From assembly GCA_007135095.1 (NCBI GenBank), contig SLJO01000191.1, positions 1 to 33,190 on the forward strand: 33,190 bases of DNA, in the 5' to 3' direction. Positions 1,479-27,642 of the stretch are shown here, piece by piece. The position numbers were made by a program, and so were the translations under genes. The notes under the pieces are model-generated. The model did not search any database. It saw only the letters and a program-made list of their open reading frames with translations, and had not been told where the DNA came from. The stretch comes from Bacteroidales bacterium. GTDB taxonomy: Bacteria; Bacteroidota; Bacteroidia; Bacteroidales; PUMT01. Within the stretch, counting starts at the first letter, position 1. Each line of letters starts with the position of its first letter.

Positions 1479-1531
1479 TACATTTTAGCATTTTTTTTTG
1501 TGGTTGCAATCAGTCAAATCTTTCCACCAGG
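1479..1531 (-). ncRNA. SAM-II-like riboswitch in the metK leader
   Basis: On the minus strand the metK leader carries the core of the SAM-II (metA/SAM_alpha) aptamer: a short P1 (GTGG at 1527-1524 with CCAC at 1503-1500), GATTTG (1520-1515), TTGCAA (1509-1504) directly before the P1 3' strand, an A-rich linker, then ATGCTAAA (1491-1484). The loop segment ending in TTGC can pair imperfectly with GCTAAA to form the pseudoknot, as in known SAM-II RNAs. It ends about 70 nt before the metK ATG, the enzyme that makes the ligand. P1 is only 4 bp and the loop has two or three extra A residues, so a covariance-model test is needed. No terminator hairpin is visible between aptamer and start. Confidence 0.68.
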
Positions 1532-11631: not shown

Positions 11632-12084
11632 TCAGGGCCCGCCGGTTGCATCGGTTGGCGTAACAGGATAGGGCTGTTCAATTTCTGCATCGGAAAGGCG
11701 CCGGTTGAGTTCATCCACCACCCTGTTATACAATGCCTCGAACTGAGGCGGATTGTAGGAATAATATTCCATGGTTTTTCTGAACTCTTCCCGGCCTACC
11801 CCGTGCATTTCAAGTACCGGAAGGTAATAATCGAGCGAATCGGCCCCCATGTCGTGCCTGGATACCGACATATTGCTAATGGTATAAACACCCTCAAAGT
11901 AATGCATGTCAACCAGCAGATCCACAAGACGGTCACCCCTTAAAACCCCCTTTCCGGGTGGGCCCTGGGGATGTGATGAACAGGCGGCAAGCAGCACGAT
12001 CATTACGATGGAGAATGCAGCAAGCCTGGACTTTATAATTTTAATTCTTAACGGGATTAAACCGCATACCAAGAAAAATTTCAT
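11632..12084 (-). CDS. Lipoprotein of the DUF4296 type
   Basis: A 150-residue predicted lipoprotein. A positively charged segment (RIKIIKSR) precedes a hydrophobic core and the lipobox LLAAC, with the modified Cys at 35, followed by a Pro/Gly-rich linker. The mature part, with LVDLLVDMHYFEGVY and a helical segment ending in FEALYNRVVDELNRRL, resembles DUF4296 proteins of Bacteroidota, whose function is unknown. With the ATG at 12084 the gene overlaps the end of the porP-like gene by 44 bp; a shorter start at a non-ATG codon would reduce the overlap and give a more usual signal length. It is the third gene of the leftward T9SS-type operon. Confidence 0.75.
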   Translation of the reverse strand: MKFFLVCGLIPLRIKIIKSRLAAFSIVMIVLLAACSSHPQGPPGKGVLRGDRLVDLLVDMHYFEGVYTISNMSVSRHDMGADSLDYYLPVLEMHGVGREEFRKTMEYYSYNPPQFEALYNRVVDELNRRLSDAEIEQPYPVTPTDATGGP

Positions 12085-12949
12085 GCGAACCGGAATTATG
12101 ATGGCGTATTGGTGAAAAACTCATGTCATATGAATAACCAAAATGGAACCTGTTTTCGTGTGTGTAACCCACTAAAAAAGATACCGCATCCTGGGTGCGC
12201 ACCGAGACACCAAGCCATAACATATTGTGGTAATATGCTTTAAGGCTGAATTCCGTCTGCAGGGGAGTAGGAATTGATCCCCGCACCATTATGGAAGGCT
12301 CAAGAGAATAAACAAAATTCAACTGATACCTGTAACCGCCGGTCAGGTAAAAATGAGTCTTCAGTTTGTTCAGGCCCTTATCCTCGTCATACAGTGCCAG
12401 TGTATTTCCGAATAGCTGATGTGCTGAAAACCCCACGTGGAAAGAGGGAGCATAAAGATATACACCGAGTGTTGCATCAGGGGAAAAGTCGGATGAAACA
12501 GCATTAACCGGAACCGGGTCACCAGGGTCAAGCAGGCTGATCCTTGTGCCGTCCACCCTGTTCTGGATTGCCCCTGCCGAGAGCCCCATTGATAATCTTG
12601 TTTCATTGTCAACCTGAAGGTTGTACGCATATGTTCCATAAAGTCCGTTACGCGTTGACGGACCGGTTACATCACTGTAAATATAGCCTCCGAAACCCAT
12701 ATCCTTTGATCTGTGGGGACCATAGAAACTCAGACTGGAGGTTTGAGGTGAATCTGTCATGCCCGCCCACTGGATCCGGCCGTTAAGCCTTGCCTGGTAA
12801 TAATTGTTTGTACCGGCCACGGCGGGATTAAAAATATATGAATTGAACATGAACTGGGTGTACAGGGGCAATTGCTGCCCCTTAATTTCCTGCATTGATG
12901 CTGAAATCAATAATCCCAGAAAAACCAGGTATGTTAGTCTTTTTCTCAT
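12041..12949 (-). CDS. PorP/SprF-family outer-membrane protein
   Basis: A 302-residue protein with an N-terminal signal peptide (MRKRLTYLVFLGLLISASMQ, cleavage near residue 25), then QQLPLYTQFMFNSYIFNPAVAGT, the hallmark opening of the PorP/SprF family. The body alternates in beta-strand fashion, and the C-terminus SGSHEIFLGMRFNP is the usual last strand of these beta-barrels. The family comprises type IX secretion partners; SprF is needed to place SprB on the surface of Flavobacterium johnsoniae. The gene begins 1 bp after the stop of the large SprB-repeat gene, so the pair is almost surely cotranscribed and the protein is likely the dedicated outer-membrane partner of that adhesin-like protein. 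Confidence 0.93.
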   Translation of the reverse strand: MRKRLTYLVFLGLLISASMQEIKGQQLPLYTQFMFNSYIFNPAVAGTNNYYQARLNGRIQWAGMTDSPQTSSLSFYGPHRSKDMGFGGYIYSDVTGPSTRNGLYGTYAYNLQVDNETRLSMGLSAGAIQNRVDGTRISLLDPGDPVPVNAVSSDFSPDATLGVYLYAPSFHVGFSAHQLFGNTLALYDEDKGLNKLKTHFYLTGGYRYQLNFVYSLEPSIMVRGSIPTPLQTEFSLKAYYHNMLWLGVSVRTQDAVSFLVGYTHENRFHFGYSYDMSFSPIRHHNSGSHEIFLGMRFNPVKN

Positions 12950-12950
12950 T

Positions 12951-15900
12951 TTATCTTATTATTGTTACCGGTCCGGTTATAGGCCTGGTCCCGAAACCAT
13001 CATTCAGGGTAATTACAAAGTAATAAGTGCCCACCGGCAAATCTCTTCCGTTATAAGTACCATCCCAGCGCCTGTCATCACTATAACCCTTTGAATGAAA
13101 TACCCTTTGTCCGGCACGGTTGAACACTTCCACAACAATATTCGGGTAATCGCCTGCATTTGTAATATCAAACATATCATTCACGCCGTCCCCATTCGGG
13201 GTGAATCCTGAAACAGGCTCCACAGGGATCAGTACGTTAATGGTAATGTAGGCATACTCCTCGCAGCCTTCGGCAGTTTCTGCCCGTACAAAATACTCGG
13301 TGCTGTTCATCACCACGGCAGAGGTGACCGGACCGCTCACCGCCGACAAACCTGTCGATGGCGCCCACTGGTAACTGGTAAAATCACCGCCCTTTGCTTC
13401 CAGTTCAATTTGCGCTCCCTGCATTACAAGGGTGTCATTCCCTATTGAAAGCCCCTGCAGGGGATGGAGGTCAACGAAAACCTGCGCCTCATCATAACAA
13501 TTGTTTCCATCGGTTACACTGAGCATATACATTGTGGGTGCTGCCGGTGAAACCGTCGGGGAAGCCACAGGCTGGGGATCAGGCCCGTGACTTGCCGTCC
13601 ACGAATAAAGTACCGATGAGGCATCCGTCAGAACCACCGGCTCAAGCTGTATGCCTGTGCCGTGGCAAATTACAGGTGACTCATCCAGGGAAACCTCAAT
13701 GCTGTTTACATAGCCTACCGTCGCTGCATGCATGACCTCACAATTATTCGCATCAGTAATAGTAACGCTGTAATCTCCCGCCGCCAGCTGGCCGATATCT
13801 CTGGTAACGGCACCATTGGACCATAGGTATGAATAGCTGCCTGCACCCCCTGAGACAGTCAGGTTGACCGCTCCGTCAGGGGTACCCGTGCCATCAGGGT
13901 TAAATCTGCTGCACCATGCCGGAGTTACCATATCAGTAACCACAACAGGATCCGGTTCGGTGAGCAATACCGTTTGCCGGTAAACATAATTATCGGCATC
14001 CGTTACCATTACCTGGTATTCGCCTGCGGGCAGTCCGGAAAATATCCCTGATGAATGGAGGCTCATGCCATCATCAATTGAATATTCATAAGGCTCTGTT
14101 CCAATATCGGCAGTAATGGTTATTACCCCGTCTGCAGATCCGTGACAAAGAGGCATGAGCGTAATGACTGAGGCAGTAATGCCTGTAGTCTCATAAAGAT
14201 AAACCGTTGTATCGGCCATGCAGCCATTTGCATCGGAAACAAGAATGCCGTATTCACCCTCTGCCAGGTCGCCAAATAAATTACCCTCCTGCCAGCTGGT
14301 TCCATCGTCGATGCTGTAGGAATAAGGCCCTGTTCCTCCTGTCATCCCGACGGCTATACTGCCGGTCTGATTTGGTGAACCAATTATGATATCGGCAACA
14401 TCCACGAAACCAAACAGCAATTCCGGGGGGGAAATGATCTCAAATGTGCCGGCATCATGTATACATCCGGATTCATCCTTTACCTGCACATCAAAGGTCC
14501 CCGGTGCAAGTCCAACGAAGCTTCCCGAATCATAAAACCCCGCTCCCCCGTTTATTGAATATTCAAGGCTGCCCGTCCCGCCGGCGGCAATGATGTTGAT
14601 CACGCCGTCGCTGTCGCCGGAACATTTGAGTTCAGAGATGGTCAGGTGGCTGATGATAATTTCGGGCGGACCGGCAATAACAATATTTTCAACCATCAGC
14701 GGTCCGCAGCCATTCGCATCAACAATTTCAACCCGGTAATTGCCCGCCGGAAGCTGACCAAAGGAAGCCTGCCCTTCGAGCTCCAGCTCCCCGGCAAGAT
14801 CATCCTGGTCATTATAAAGTGAATACCGGTAAGGAGCAATGCCACCGCCAACCCCGACTTCGATAATTCCTTCATTGGTGCCATGGCAGATAAGGTCTGT
14901 TGTAACCAGGAGTTCAAGAACTAATTCCTCCGGTACCACAGTACTCAGTATGTCACTGATTGCAGGCCCGCAGCCGTTATCATCATCCACCATAACCTGG
15001 TAATCGGTTCTGTTCCCGGTAAGGGATTCAAAGTAAACCAGCTGATTCCCGGCAACACCAGTAACCGATTCCACCTGCACTCCGTCAAGGTAAAGAGAAA
15101 CTGCATAGGGGGGGGTGCCGCCTGAGGCAACTGCACTTATTCCCGGTTCGCCGGAATCATAACAATCAATATTGTGAACCTCGGTGGCAACCTCGAGCTT
15201 TTCGGGCTGCCCCACATTATTAAGCTCAAATGCCCTTATACAGTTGCTTTCATCCTTCACATACATGGTATATCCGCCGGCTGAAAGTCCCCCGAAAAAC
15301 CCGGCCGGCTGATAGCTGTCGTTATCGAGGGAGTACAGGAGTATCCCGGTGCCACCCGTAGCAGTTACCTGGATTGATCCGTCAAGCTTGCCATAACATG
15401 AAGCATCGGTTATTACAACACTCTCAGGGTGAATTGCCGGAGGTTCGGTTAGTGTAACCTGCTGTGATCCGGAAGTAACGCAGCCGGATCCATCCTTTAC
15501 GATAATGTTGTATGTTCCCTGTGACAGGTTTGGGAATATTCCGTCATTGGCATAGAAATCATCACCGTTATTTACTGAATATTCAAAATTGCCGTTCCCG
15601 CCAGATGCTTCAATCATTATTAACCCGTTTGTATCGCCCGCACACAGGATATTGGTATGATTAACAAGTGCAGTCAGCTCATCCGGCTCTTCCAGAATTA
15701 TATCATCCTCAAGAGCCGTAATACAGCCGTTGGCATCGGTAACCTCCACATTATAAGCGCCGGGAGCCAATTGGCTGAATATTACGGGATCGCCGGAAGC
15801 ATGGAGGTCAATTTCAACTCCTGAATGAAAAAGCCTGTATGTAAGCGGCAGAATACCGCCCTGGGCCGAGACATAGATCACCCCGTTGCCGTCGCCAAAG

Positions 15901-17249
15901 CAGTCAATATCATCGTGCCAGGCATTGATATTCAGAAATTCCGGTTCAGTTACCGTGAAGTTTACCGTAATATAACAGCCTTTGGCATCCCTGATCCGGA
16001 TTGCATAATCATCTGCGCCAAGATCTGAAAAGATGCCGTCTGCCTGCCAGTTTACACCGTCCAGGCTGTATTGATAAGGCGCCTCTCCGCCGCTGCCTTC
16101 TGCCGAAACGCTGCCTGTGCTTTCTCCATGGCACAAAACGTCGGTTTGTGATGTGATATTTCCGCCAAGCGCAGTGGCCGGCTGGGTGATTGTTACAGGA
16201 ACATCAAAACTGCAGCCACCGGCATCAACCACGGTAACAATGTAATTTCCTGCTGCAAGCAATGAAAAGGTACCTGATCCCTGCAAAGTGGTGCCGCCGT
16301 CAAGGCTGTACTGATAAGGTGAGGTCCCGCCGCTGCCTGCAACCGTGACGATGCCGGTGCTTTCTCCATGGCACAAAACGTCGGTTTGTGATTCTACACT
16401 GCCTTCAACGGCAGTTGCGGGCTGAGAAACAGTGTATGCAGGATCAAGTAGCGTTATGCAACCAGGATCACCCGCATTGCGGATCCAGATTTCATAGTTC
16501 CCGGCCGAAAGGCCTTCAAAAAAGCCATTGTCTTCCCATCCTTTTCCGGTGATCCGGTACCGGTAATTTCCCGGGCCACCGGATGGATTGCTTATGGTAA
16601 TAGTGCCGTTATTGCCGCCAAAACAGGAAACACCGGTATGATCAATATCTGCATCGAGATCCGGGTAAACCTCTACCGGTATAACCTGTTCAGATTCACA
16701 CCCCTTCTGGTCGGTAACCCTGTATATAAGATTATAATCACCGGGAATGCCCGAATTAAAAACAGGGTCTTCAATATGAGCATCGTTAAGAAATGCAGCT
16801 CCCGATCCTGTCCACTCATGAACATAACCGCCGTTACCGCCGGCAGGATTACCGGAAAACTGCAAGTCGGTCGCCGGACAGATCCCTGCCGGGTCGGGTG
16901 AAACGAATGACATCAATTCGGCCGGCTCACCCACAGAAATACTGGAGTTAACCTCATGATCATCTGCATCTATAACAACGATAAAGTAATTATTACCCGA
17001 CTTAACCTGGGTAAAGGTATGACTGGTACCGGGAACATCGTACACCTCATCATTCCCTTTGGGACCGCCATACCAGTAATAATAAGGAGCTGTGCCACCG
17101 GATATTACTATGGTAATACTCCCTGAAGCCTCGCCGTAACAATCGGCGGACTGGGAGGTGACCGATTCAATCTGTAACTGCCCGAATGCTGCGTGCAGGG
17201 GAAAAATTGTCAAGAAACATATAAAGAAAAACTGACAAAGTATTCTCAT
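12951..17249 (-). CDS. SprB-repeat surface protein with T9SS type B C-terminal domain
   Basis: A 1432-residue secreted protein. A signal peptide (about 1-24, ending AAFGQ) is followed by roughly 13 SprB-type modules of 75-90 residues, each starting with a C(F/Y/H)G...G motif and containing SGG..PY.YS, a central LxAGxY, and VxDxxGC. A PKD-like segment lies near residues 115-195, two Ig/PKD-like segments near 1190-1345, and the last 85 residues are the gliding-motility-associated CHU_C sorting domain (FTPNGDGVNDMFDI to the C-terminal arginine). The protein should cross the outer membrane through the type IX system and remain on the surface or be released, probably as an adhesin. It is the first gene of an operon with the PorP/SprF-like gene. 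The module array makes it prone to recombination. Confidence 0.95.
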   Translation of the reverse strand: MRILCQFFFICFLTIFPLHAAFGQLQIESVTSQSADCYGEASGSITIVISGGTAPYYYWYGGPKGNDEVYDVPGTSHTFTQVKSGNNYFIVVIDADDHEVNSSISVGEPAELMSFVSPDPAGICPATDLQFSGNPAGGNGGYVHEWTGSGAAFLNDAHIEDPVFNSGIPGDYNLIYRVTDQKGCESEQVIPVEVYPDLDADIDHTGVSCFGGNNGTITISNPSGGPGNYRYRITGKGWEDNGFFEGLSAGNYEIWIRNAGDPGCITLLDPAYTVSQPATAVEGSVESQTDVLCHGESTGIVTVAGSGGTSPYQYSLDGGTTLQGSGTFSLLAAGNYIVTVVDAGGCSFDVPVTITQPATALGGNITSQTDVLCHGESTGSVSAEGSGGEAPYQYSLDGVNWQADGIFSDLGADDYAIRIRDAKGCYITVNFTVTEPEFLNINAWHDDIDCFGDGNGVIYVSAQGGILPLTYRLFHSGVEIDLHASGDPVIFSQLAPGAYNVEVTDANGCITALEDDIILEEPDELTALVNHTNILCAGDTNGLIMIEASGGNGNFEYSVNNGDDFYANDGIFPNLSQGTYNIIVKDGSGCVTSGSQQVTLTEPPAIHPESVVITDASCYGKLDGSIQVTATGGTGILLYSLDNDSYQPAGFFGGLSAGGYTMYVKDESNCIRAFELNNVGQPEKLEVATEVHNIDCYDSGEPGISAVASGGTPPYAVSLYLDGVQVESVTGVAGNQLVYFESLTGNRTDYQVMVDDDNGCGPAISDILSTVVPEELVLELLVTTDLICHGTNEGIIEVGVGGGIAPYRYSLYNDQDDLAGELELEGQASFGQLPAGNYRVEIVDANGCGPLMVENIVIAGPPEIIISHLTISELKCSGDSDGVINIIAAGGTGSLEYSINGGAGFYDSGSFVGLAPGTFDVQVKDESGCIHDAGTFEIISPPELLFGFVDVADIIIGSPNQTGSIAVGMTGGTGPYSYSIDDGTSWQEGNLFGDLAEGEYGILVSDANGCMADTTVYLYETTGITASVITLMPLCHGSADGVITITADIGTEPYEYSIDDGMSLHSSGIFSGLPAGEYQVMVTDADNYVYRQTVLLTEPDPVVVTDMVTPAWCSRFNPDGTGTPDGAVNLTVSGGAGSYSYLWSNGAVTRDIGQLAAGDYSVTITDANNCEVMHAATVGYVNSIEVSLDESPVICHGTGIQLEPVVLTDASSVLYSWTASHGPDPQPVASPTVSPAAPTMYMLSVTDGNNCYDEAQVFVDLHPLQGLSIGNDTLVMQGAQIELEAKGGDFTSYQWAPSTGLSAVSGPVTSAVVMNSTEYFVRAETAEGCEEYAYITINVLIPVEPVSGFTPNGDGVNDMFDITNAGDYPNIVVEVFNRAGQRVFHSKGYSDDRRWDGTYNGRDLPVGTYYFVITLNDGFGTRPITGPVTIIR
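16117..16392 (-). repeat. Near-identical neighbouring SprB modules at DNA level
   Basis: A 36-bp identical segment occurs at 16117-16152 and again at 16357-16392, exactly 240 bp (80 codons) apart, inside the third and fourth SprB modules. Flanking bases are also much more alike than between other modules. This points to a recent duplication or gene conversion that keeps the reading frame. Confidence 0.85.
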
Positions 17250-23211: not shown

Positions 23212-26200
23212 TTATTCCTGTCCAAGGTATTTTTCAAGTATGTCATACAGGATCTCCCTGCTGAGAGGTTTGGTAAGGTGTTCGTTAAATCCGGTGTCTT
23301 CGCTTTTTTGTATCTGATCGGGCATGGCATAGGCGGACTGGGCAATGACAGGTATGCGTGTGTTCTTTTTGCGTATCTCCCTGACCACCTGGAAACCGTC
23401 TTTCCCGGGCATGCGGATGTCCAGCAAAAGCAGATCCACCGGCCCGCTGTTGAACAGCTCAAGCACCTTGTTCCCGTCCCGGGCTATAAGCATTGTGATG
23501 CCGGTATCCCTGAGCATGTATTTTATCATCTCAAGGCTGTAGGGATCATCCTCGGCGATTATCACCTTTTTCCCATCCAGACGGGGAGCCTGGATCACCC
23601 CGTTATTGGCACGGTTTGCGGCGTTGCTTTCTGCCTTTGCTTTTTTAAAAGGCAGGGTAAAACAAAATTTTGATCCCTTGCCTTCTTCAGATTCCACCCA
23701 CATTCTTCCTCCCAGCCTCTGTGCCAGTCCCCGGGCAATGGCAAGCCCCAGTCCGGTCCCTTTGGCAACCCTTTGGTTGAGAAGTGTATCATCCCCTTGC
23801 CGGAACCTTTCGAATATAATCTGATGAAATTTCCCTGCTATCCCCGGTCCGGTATCATAAACGTAAAACAGCACTTCCTTTTTACCGTGGATCTCAAAGC
23901 CAAGTTCGACATAACCCTTATTGGTGTATTTGAACGCGTTGCTTAAAAGGTTGTGCAGTATCTGCTGCAACCTGTGCCTGTCGGTAACCAGGTTCAGCTC
24001 ATGAGCACCGCCGGGCAGTTTAAGGTGAAAATCTATCTTGTCTCTATTTTCCGTCGTAAAGCCCTCGAATTCATCCCTTATTTTTTCCATCAGATGGCAG
24101 ATATTCACGCCCGAGAGATGAACCGGCAGCTCGCCGGCATCCAGCCGGGATATGTCCACAATATCACTGATAAGGTGCAGCAGTTGTTTCCCGGAGTTAT
24201 TTATATTGTCAACAAATTTCCGGGGCCTGTCACCGCTGACCTCATCCCTTAGCATATCGGCAAAACCAAGAATGGAATTCAGGGGGGTGCGGATCTCATG
24301 CGACATGTTTTCCAGGAACAGCGTTTTAAGGTGGGCTGCATTTGCAGAATCTTCCCTTGCCTTTTCCAGCTCCTCTTCCCGATGTTTTATCCAGGAGATG
24401 TCTTTTACAATATTGGAAAGCGCAATAATTTCTCCCTTGTCATTTTTAATGGGCGACTTGGTAACAGAAACAGGGATCAAGGTGCCGTCCTTTCTTTTAT
24501 GGACCGACTCCCTTCCCCGCACAGCCTCCCCGCTTTGGGCTTTATCTGCCATGTCAGCCTCCTCTTTGCCATGAGAGTCGAAAAATATGTCCCTGCTCAT
24601 AGAACCTATTGCCTCCTTTTTGCTGTACCCGTAGAGTCGTGTGGCGCCATTGTTCCATGACAGGATCTTCCCGCCGGTTGATTCGCTGAAGATGGCATCA
24701 TCGGCTGATTCAACGATGGAGGCAAGATGCATATGGGCCTTTAATTCCTTTTTTTCATGGGTAATGTCCTGCACAAAAGCGGCAATAAAATGCTCCTCGT
24801 GGGTGAAAAACAGTATTTTCAGGTGCTTGTCGAACTCCGGGAAATATATCTCCTCCTGGTACTCCCTCCCGGGAAGGACCCTTTTCAGCAGCCTATCGCG
24901 ATAATCTTTTTGCCTGAACAGTTCGCCGAAAATCTTATCCTTATTTTCACCGGGGGCCGTTTGCATCATCTCCCTGTAGGCATTGTTTGCTTCCACCAGT
25001 TTGATTTCACCGGCCACGCCATTTTTGTTTGTTATAACCCTGTAAAGGGCAAAGCCATGTTGCATATGATGGAACAAATACATGTACCTTCTCAGCCTTT
25101 CGGCTTCTTCCTCAAGCTTCTGCAGCTTGTTTTTCTCAGAAATGTCGGTAAAAGTGATTACCACCCCGTTTATCCGGTCATCGATGGTCCGGTAGGGTGA
25201 AATGCGCATCCAGTACTGCCTGCCCTTTCCGGTGGAAATTTCCTTTTCCACAGGTTTGAGCCTGTCAAGTACCTTTTTAACATCCCCCACAAGCTGCTCC
25301 TGGAGGAAGTTGATGCCGAAATCCTGTATCGGCCGGCCTGCATCGGACTCCTGCAGGCTGACAATTTCTTTTATCTGGGGGGAAAACCTTCTTATTTTGA
25401 GGTTCCTGTCAAGGAACAGGATCCCTATGTCGGTGCTTTGAAGAAAATTGTTAAGATCGCTGTTGATATGAGTTACTTCTTCTATCTTGCGGTGCAGCTC
25501 GTTGTTCGAGGTTTCCAGTTCCTCGTTGAGCGATTGCATCTCTTCCTTTGATGTCTCCAGCTCCTCGTTGGTGCTTTGCATTTCCTCGTTGGTGGACTGG
25601 GCTTCTTCATTGGCCGACCTTAGCTCCTGGTTGGAGGTCTCCAGCTCCTCTATCACGTTGTTCAGGTATTCGCGTGTCTCCTGCAGCTCCTGCTCCATCT
25701 GCCTGATATAGTCATCCGGTCCAATGGCCTCCTTCCGGTCATCTGGATCCTTCGGTCCGGATTTTTCATAGGAGGCAGATGATGGTTCAAGTGAAACAAT
25801 CACCAGGTGTGACAGATGTGAGGGTTTTTTCACCGGGGTCAGCCTCAGGTCAACAAATTCATTGCCGCCGTTGTCGCCAACCCTGATGTTTTTATATGTG
25901 AAAGGGTCTTTCTCACCATTTATTTTGCGCAGGGCGGCAGAAAGGGGCATTTTCAGTCCCTCCCTGGCCAGGTTCACAATATTCTGGTTTGGCTCGCCCG
26001 GGGGAAACCTGAAATATTTATCGCACTGTCCCAGTGAATACTGGATCTCACCCTTTTTGTCGATAAGCAGCAGCGGGTTCATATATTCCGTTAACGCCTT
26101 TTTTTCCATGAATTCCCTCACCGGCATTTGCTTTGCACCGGTTTTCCCGGGGCCGTCACCCGGCTGCAGGTACGGTTCGCGTCCCCGGGACTGCGACAGG

Positions 26201-27642
26201 TAGTCGATAATGGCTTTCCTGTTTTCCTTTTTGATGTATATGCGCGCCTTCGAGTCTATGGTACGGTACAGTTCATTTCTTCCCGAATGGGTCTCCGAAT
26301 TTCCAAGGAACAGGTAACCGCCGGTTTTAAGGGCATAGTGGAAGGTGTTGAGCAGGTTCTTCTGCACACCGGGCTCCAGGTAGATAAGAAAATTGCGGCA
26401 GCTTACAAGGTCAAGCTTCGAATAGGGAGGATCCTTTATGGCGCTGTGCTGCGCAAAGGTCACCATATCGCGGATTTCTTTGTGTACCTGGTATAAATCA
26501 CCATGTTTATGGAAATACTTATCCAGCAGATCATCCGGGATGTCAGCCTTGACATTTTCCCTGTACTTCCCTGCACGGGCCACATCCAGGGCTTTGCTGT
26601 CTACATCGGTGGCAAAAAACTGCATGTCTTTTCTGATCCTTTTTGATACCTGGTACTCTTTTGCCAGTATGGCAATCGAGTATACCTCCTCCCCGGTGGC
26701 ACAGGCAGGCACCCATATACGTACCGGATCTGGGGTTTCAGGGTCTATTATGGCCGGCAGCACCTTTTCCCCGAGGGCATCGAAGGCCTCTTTGTTGCGG
26801 AAAAAGGAGGTCACGCCAATAAGGAATTCCTTGAAAAGATGATTTGTCTCACCGGGGTCATTTTCCAGCAGGCGGAGATAATCTCTTAGCTGTGGTTTTT
26901 TAAGCATAGCCATCCTTCTGCGGATGCGCCTGTGAATGGTGGTATGTTTGTAGCCCGAGAAATCATGGCCGGTATGTGAATGCACCAGCCGCAATAACTT
27001 CACCATCTGATCTTCGGTATTATCCCCGGTAAAGGGTTCTATCTCTTTGTGGCAGTTCCTTTGGAATTCCAGCAGCAGGGCGGGAAGATCACGCGGACGG
27101 GCGATCTTGTCCACAAGTCCGGTTTCAATGGCATTGCGGGGCATGGAGTTAAACCTGGTCGATTGGGGGTCCTGCACCATCACCAGTCCGCCGGCATTTT
27201 TTATTTCCCTGATGCCCAGCGAGCCATCGGAACCTGTGCCGCTAAGCAGGATGGCTGCTATGGTATCCTTGCGGTCGGCTGCCAGGGAGCGCAGGAAAAT
27301 ATCAACGGGCAGGTGGAGCCCCTTTTTGGTTTTGCTGTATTTTTCAAGGCGGAACCTGTTGGCCCTGATAGTGGCATCGTACCCCGAGGGCAGCACATAA
27401 ACATGGTTGGGCTCGGGGGTGGCACCTTCACTTATGTCAACCACCTTAAGGGTGGTTTTTCTTTGGAGGATATCGCCAAGCACACTTTTATGATCGGGCG
27501 AAAGATGCTGTACCACCACGAAGATGAGCCCCTCCTGCCCGGGAAGATTTGAAAAAAACTCTTCCATTGCCCTTATCCCGTCAGCCGATGCACCAATACA
27601 TGCGATGATGTGATTCGCCGTGCCAATGTTTTTTTTTGTCAT
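23212..27642 (-). CDS. CheB-CheR-PAS hybrid histidine kinase with receiver domain
   Basis: A 1476-residue multidomain signalling protein. In order: CheB-type methylesterase (10-190; catalytic Ser19, His46, Asp139 all kept), CheR-type SAM methyltransferase (205-480; VTSFFR, PACATGEEVYS at 312-322), a PAS-like linker (about 515-625), a Glu-rich coiled coil of repeated TNEELETS/NEEMQS heptads (640-730), three PAS-like domains (about 735-840, 855-965, 970-1085), a HisKA domain with His1115 (SHEIRTPLNSILGF), a HATPase (N-box near 1231, GTGLGLAIA near 1295), and a receiver (1358-1474) with Asp1408, acidic residues 1364-1366, Ser1436 and Lys1458. No transmembrane helix is obvious. All catalytic centres look intact. 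No cheA, cheW or receptor gene is nearby, so target and output are unknown. Confidence 0.95.
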   Translation of the reverse strand: MTKKNIGTANHIIACIGASADGIRAMEEFFSNLPGQEGLIFVVVQHLSPDHKSVLGDILQRKTTLKVVDISEGATPEPNHVYVLPSGYDATIRANRFRLEKYSKTKKGLHLPVDIFLRSLAADRKDTIAAILLSGTGSDGSLGIREIKNAGGLVMVQDPQSTRFNSMPRNAIETGLVDKIARPRDLPALLLEFQRNCHKEIEPFTGDNTEDQMVKLLRLVHSHTGHDFSGYKHTTIHRRIRRRMAMLKKPQLRDYLRLLENDPGETNHLFKEFLIGVTSFFRNKEAFDALGEKVLPAIIDPETPDPVRIWVPACATGEEVYSIAILAKEYQVSKRIRKDMQFFATDVDSKALDVARAGKYRENVKADIPDDLLDKYFHKHGDLYQVHKEIRDMVTFAQHSAIKDPPYSKLDLVSCRNFLIYLEPGVQKNLLNTFHYALKTGGYLFLGNSETHSGRNELYRTIDSKARIYIKKENRKAIIDYLSQSRGREPYLQPGDGPGKTGAKQMPVREFMEKKALTEYMNPLLLIDKKGEIQYSLGQCDKYFRFPPGEPNQNIVNLAREGLKMPLSAALRKINGEKDPFTYKNIRVGDNGGNEFVDLRLTPVKKPSHLSHLVIVSLEPSSASYEKSGPKDPDDRKEAIGPDDYIRQMEQELQETREYLNNVIEELETSNQELRSANEEAQSTNEEMQSTNEELETSKEEMQSLNEELETSNNELHRKIEEVTHINSDLNNFLQSTDIGILFLDRNLKIRRFSPQIKEIVSLQESDAGRPIQDFGINFLQEQLVGDVKKVLDRLKPVEKEISTGKGRQYWMRISPYRTIDDRINGVVITFTDISEKNKLQKLEEEAERLRRYMYLFHHMQHGFALYRVITNKNGVAGEIKLVEANNAYREMMQTAPGENKDKIFGELFRQKDYRDRLLKRVLPGREYQEEIYFPEFDKHLKILFFTHEEHFIAAFVQDITHEKKELKAHMHLASIVESADDAIFSESTGGKILSWNNGATRLYGYSKKEAIGSMSRDIFFDSHGKEEADMADKAQSGEAVRGRESVHKRKDGTLIPVSVTKSPIKNDKGEIIALSNIVKDISWIKHREEELEKAREDSANAAHLKTLFLENMSHEIRTPLNSILGFADMLRDEVSGDRPRKFVDNINNSGKQLLHLISDIVDISRLDAGELPVHLSGVNICHLMEKIRDEFEGFTTENRDKIDFHLKLPGGAHELNLVTDRHRLQQILHNLLSNAFKYTNKGYVELGFEIHGKKEVLFYVYDTGPGIAGKFHQIIFERFRQGDDTLLNQRVAKGTGLGLAIARGLAQRLGGRMWVESEEGKGSKFCFTLPFKKAKAESNAANRANNGVIQAPRLDGKKVIIAEDDPYSLEMIKYMLRDTGITMLIARDGNKVLELFNSGPVDLLLLDIRMPGKDGFQVVREIRKKNTRIPVIAQSAYAMPDQIQKSEDTGFNEHLTKPLSREILYDILEKYLGQE

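Follow-up and report, generated by a model that had tools for sequence, protein, structure and literature searches.

A SAM-II long-loop riboswitch in front of metK in a Bacteroidales bacterium and its candidate terminator-less platform

The window analyzed here (the whole stretch of 33,190 nucleotides from a Bacteroidales bacterium) carries on its minus strand the only metK copy of the genome (77-1408; a 443-aa open reading frame with a MetK N-terminus), which encodes S-adenosylmethionine (SAM) synthetase. A preliminary description had placed a SAM-II-like riboswitch in front of this gene. The locus raises the question of whether the element is a genuine SAM-II aptamer and, if so, how SAM binding could be passed on to a start codon that lies well downstream.

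Identity and structure of the aptamer

Comparison of the whole window with Rfam 15 (cmscan) shows a full-length match (model positions 1-60) to RF01726, the SAM-II long-loop family, at 1533-1475 on the minus strand, with a score of 64.8 bits against a gathering cut-off of 44 (E 1.8e-10). This was the sole match in the window at gathering score, and a permissive scan of 1380-1700 against all of Rfam (E<=1) returned no further credible family; the genome contains one copy of RF01726. The element, which reads AACCTGGTGGAAAGATTTGACTGATTGCAACCACAAAAAAAAATGCTAAAATGTATATC in the metK leader, had been proposed to span 1479-1531; a SAM-II aptamer does lie there, its true extent being 1475-1533. The covariance model that had been suggested as a check, RF00521, does not detect it: the score at the metK leader is 13.0 bits (cut-off 36; E about 5 genome-wide, that is, noise) and is exceeded at six other places in the genome, and RF00521 is ruled out as the fitting model in favor of RF01726.

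The pieces on which the assignment had been based are all seen on the minus strand in the order claimed: GATTTG (1520-1515), TTGCAACCAC (1509-1500), an A-rich linker and TGCTAAA (1490-1484). Their structural roles were evaluated in 142 distinct metK leaders from relatives. The 5' strand of P1 (GTGG, 1527-1524) pairs with CCAC (1503-1500), and this helix reads GTGG/CCAC in 113 leaders, GAGG/CCTC in 26, GCGG/CCGC in two and GGGG/CCCC in one, with no mismatch, the second pair occurring as four Watson-Crick types without exception. The conserved L1 motif (1520-1515) is GATTTG in 108 leaders, AATTTG in 33 and GAGTTG in one. The strands of the P2 pseudoknot, TTGC (1509-1506) and GCTAAA (1489-1484), are near invariant (141 and 137 of the 142, respectively), and its closing pair is C-G in 138 leaders, T-A in one (a compensatory change) and C.A in three. 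One pair of P2a is C-G in 50 leaders and T-A in 37. P1 and P2a covary; the window's own P2a is weak, consisting by inspection of G.U and U.G pairs only.

A probable promoter lies just upstream. By inspection, TATATTTA (1549-1542, minus strand) matches seven of the eight positions of the Bacteroidota -7 consensus TAnnTTTG (quoted in PMC7366714), and a TTG at 1572-1570 may represent the -33 element. A perfect TAnnTTTG is found 5' of the aptamer in 126 of the 142 leaders, typically 9-18 nt ahead of P1, with TTG most often a further 21-23 nt upstream. Transcription in the window probably starts near 1537-1535, a few nucleotides ahead of P1.

Distribution and gene context

The preliminary description had expressed doubt about how common SAM-II is in Bacteroidota. 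This point is now settled: the long-loop sub-family was described from Bacteroidetes, and a match is present in 197 of the 295 genomes sampled from the order (about two thirds), in 11 of 16 from the family and in 45 of 296 genomes of a phylum-wide sample, where all matches above cut-off fall in the same class as the window's organism. Among 124 copies located by motif, 121 directly precede metK; of the remaining three, one (L021) is cut by a contig end, one (L081) also precedes metK, and one (L122) precedes a metH-like frame. The metK-leader element is accordingly a true SAM-II riboswitch and belongs to a kind that had been catalogued from Bacteroidetes before; the covariance model, the conservation, the gene context and the covariation of base pairs all support a SAM-II aptamer upstream of metK. 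Since the family is known, common in the order and found before metK, and since its P1 and P2a covary, the window's riboswitch is an ordinary further member, and its identification amounts to the correct annotation of a known element.

Several relatives depart from this arrangement. L122 (G391:C269:1200-2200; aptamer at 291-349) belongs to a genome of the same order with two SAM-II copies, one before metK and the other before a methionine-synthase-like frame (MetH, by its N-terminus). Some close relatives lack an RF01726 match: in two genomes of the same genus (G006, leader L182; G007, leader L183) the aptamer is absent and metK is divergent, with 64% identity to that of the window, which may reflect replacement by a foreign copy, and in another (G012) metK is cut short, its first 111 residues missing. 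In class-level relatives (L067-L077) long-loop forms occur with extra hairpins between P1 and the A-rich strand, and their linkers carry CTTTAGC, which could pair with GCTAAAG of P2.

Elsewhere on the window's minus strand, a 1432-aa protein with repeats and a gliding-type C-terminal domain (12951-17249) is followed by a PorP/SprF-like protein (12041-12949); judged by eye, the two look like a type IX secretion pair. A 1476-aa protein (23212-27642) appears, also by eye, to be a fusion of CheB, CheR, PAS, histidine kinase and receiver domains.

The linker, the competing fold and the output step

The linker between aptamer and metK (1483-1409, minus strand) is 75 nt long in the window, counted between the last base of GCTAAA (1484) and the ATG (1408), in good agreement with the earlier estimate of about 70 nt; in the 142 leaders it ranges from 58 to 147 nt (median 75.5). 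As had been noted, no terminator is visible: none was detected on the minus strand of the window between the aptamer and the start codon, and terminator-like hairpins occur in 3 of the 142 linkers versus 1.1 expected. Nor does a ribosome site adjoin the aptamer, the window's start codon lying 75 nt downstream.

Analysis of the linkers shows instead a tendency to pair with the 5' half of the aptamer. Over the 142 leaders this pairing is stronger than in shuffled sequences (mean z -1.85 ± 0.11, versus -0.24 for a reversed-aptamer control), and it is so when the linker halves are shuffled separately (z -1.81, control -0.22) and in a replicate of 36 leaders of named genomes outside the first set (z -1.51, control -0.14). 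In minimum-energy folds, computed with a model that leaves pseudoknots out, aptamer positions 1-21 pair with the linker, mostly 30-65 nt before the start codon, and the start region stays open. Linkers also match their own aptamers better than those of other leaders (-16.05 versus -13.50 kcal/mol after permutation; none of 2000 permutations was as low), an effect not seen when upstream DNA or metK coding sequence served as decoy (z -0.3 and 0.1). Reversed-sequence controls of this matched-pair test give z -3.5 and -5.0, versus about -13 for the real sequences, reflecting inflation of the test by relatedness and composition. Allele changes in aptamer and linker are correlated: CCTC goes with GAGG (p 0.003), CCAC with GTGG alone (p 0.014), CAAG with CTTG (p 0.003) and CAG with CTG (p 0.004); these p-values ignore relatedness and were chosen out of fourteen tests. 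A single-word anti-P2 test (CAATC versus CAAGC) gives no more than a hint (p 0.08 and 0.11), and the tests based on energy and on alleles are clearer. Taken as a group trend, these results suggest, without proving, that the platform is a competing RNA fold and not a terminator hairpin.

In the window itself the minimum-energy fold pairs 1533-1505 with 1469-1440, the candidate anti-aptamer strand of the SAM-free fold, and 1491-1488 with 1481-1478, a small ATGC/GTAT hairpin (1491-1478) that would mask the 3' strand of P2; the corresponding ATGCTAAAA[C/T]GTAT segment is common to part of the window's own family. The predicted fold would open both P1 and P2. Taken alone, the window's leader pairs no better than its shuffles (p about 0.4; whole-leader z -0.21), and the mechanism is therefore extrapolated from the group rather than demonstrated on this leader. 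Pairing is far stronger in the sister genus, for example in L007 (two 6-bp helices, p 0.005-0.02).

It is quite likely that the SAM-II long-loop riboswitch (RF01726) with which the metK mRNA begins is a feedback OFF switch working through a competing linker strand, with Rho as its most likely last step. Transcription would probably begin a few nucleotides ahead of P1, as the putative promoter element indicates. SAM, whose binding is expected from membership in the family, would close the P1/P2 pseudoknot of an aptamer recognized by homology and covariation. When SAM is scarce, the C-rich downstream linker would open the aptamer by pairing with its 5' half, a step that follows the family trend and is only predicted for the window; with SAM bound, the linker would be freed and metK expression would drop. 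The OFF logic at high SAM follows from the fact that metK makes SAM.

As to the last step, since there is neither an intrinsic terminator nor a ribosome site beside the aptamer, the most likely outcome is taken to be that Rho loads on the linker once this C-rich, G-poor strand is freed, although we infer it only tentatively, at somewhat under an even chance; otherwise translation would be reduced or mRNA stability altered. The genome encodes a Rho RNA-binding domain. The linkers have a C/G ratio of 2.15, versus 1.09 in aptamer-less metK leaders, control stretches that lie largely upstream of likely promoters; since a strand complementary to the G-rich half of the aptamer must itself be rich in C, this C-richness is not independent evidence for Rho and was discounted. 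Extension of this scheme to Bacteroidota SAM-II as a whole, i.e., a class-wide terminator-less platform whose downstream strand evolves jointly with the aptamer's 5' half, competes for it and, once released, loads Rho, appears rather unlikely at present.

A translational output of the same aptamer, in which the SAM-bound fold or the freed linker would cut ribosome access to metK and transcription would not be ended, falls short of an even chance. It accords with the absence of an intrinsic terminator and with a slight preference of the linkers for pairing to the start region (z -0.54 ± 0.11); however, the distance of 58-147 nt between aptamer and start codon excludes direct burial of the ribosome site of the kind seen in SAM-V/metX, and the last 30 nt of the linkers are A/T-rich and unpaired in the predicted folds. 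Much less probable is a leader peptide begun at a conserved ATG in ATGCTAAA and ending near metK, with SAM-induced folding masking the ATG and uncoupling metK. ATGCTAAA does occur in 125 of the 142 leaders, with another NTG in most of the others, and in the window a 22-codon frame (1491-1423, minus strand) stops 14 nt before metK. However, the linker is open to the same extent in all three frames (77, 83 and 74 of 125), so that their openness reflects composition; the other frames likewise tend to stop near metK (0.58, 0.49 and 0.42 for the three frames); three leaders have ATACTAAA; and a second ATG, at 1483, is not retained throughout the genus. A leader peptide from ATG 1491 or ATG 1483 is not supported, and the 22-codon frame is probably not coding. 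A chance SAM-II resemblance without function, which the shortness of the core and the failure of RF00521 to recognize the element might suggest, is extremely improbable given the E-value of 1.8e-10, the association with metK in 121 of 124 copies and the perfect covariation of P1.

Comparison with known systems

The first SAM-II examples, published in 2005, already included Bacteroides thetaiotaomicron (PMC1273637), SAM-II was reported in Bacteroidetes in a 2007 survey, and the long-loop family RF01726 was described in 2010 from Bacteroidetes and marine sequences (Weinberg 2010, PMC2864571); an experimental study of SAM-II in Bacteroidota was not found among the open-licence papers searched. 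The window's aptamer agrees with RF01726 in sequence, in P1, L1 and the P2 strands, in phylum and in its full-length match above cut-off, and differs only by its weak P2a. The main-text passages of PMC2864571 consulted here make no mention of a competing linker pairing. With classical SAM-II (RF00521, SAM_alpha; PMC1273637) the element shares the pseudoknot layout, the order of the pieces, association with SAM-metabolism genes and a start just before P1, classical starts being likewise placed a few nucleotides ahead of that helix; unlike the leaders studied here, many classical members carry an intrinsic terminator downstream of P2. SAM-V (PMC6061858, PMC2704228) shares its core pseudoknot and SAM pocket with SAM-II, as the structure paper states, but masks a ribosome site adjoining the aptamer, in contrast to the 75 nt of linker found here. 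No covariance-model match to SAM-V was obtained at E<=1 over 1380-1700 in the scan against all of Rfam.

Riboswitch control of Rho-dependent termination has reportedly been described for other riboswitch classes (Hollands, 2012). The output proposed here would resemble it, in that the ligand state exposes a Rho loading region; for Bacteroidota SAM-II, unlike those systems, such an output is only inferred here. Aptamer and gene together represent textbook SAM feedback, and the platform analysis is a modest addition, although the less ordinary result. In about two thirds of the order's sampled genomes an essential enzyme is placed under a riboswitch that lacks both a terminator and a ribosome site close by; leader regulation in this phylum has received little study, and the competing strand offers exact positions for mutation.
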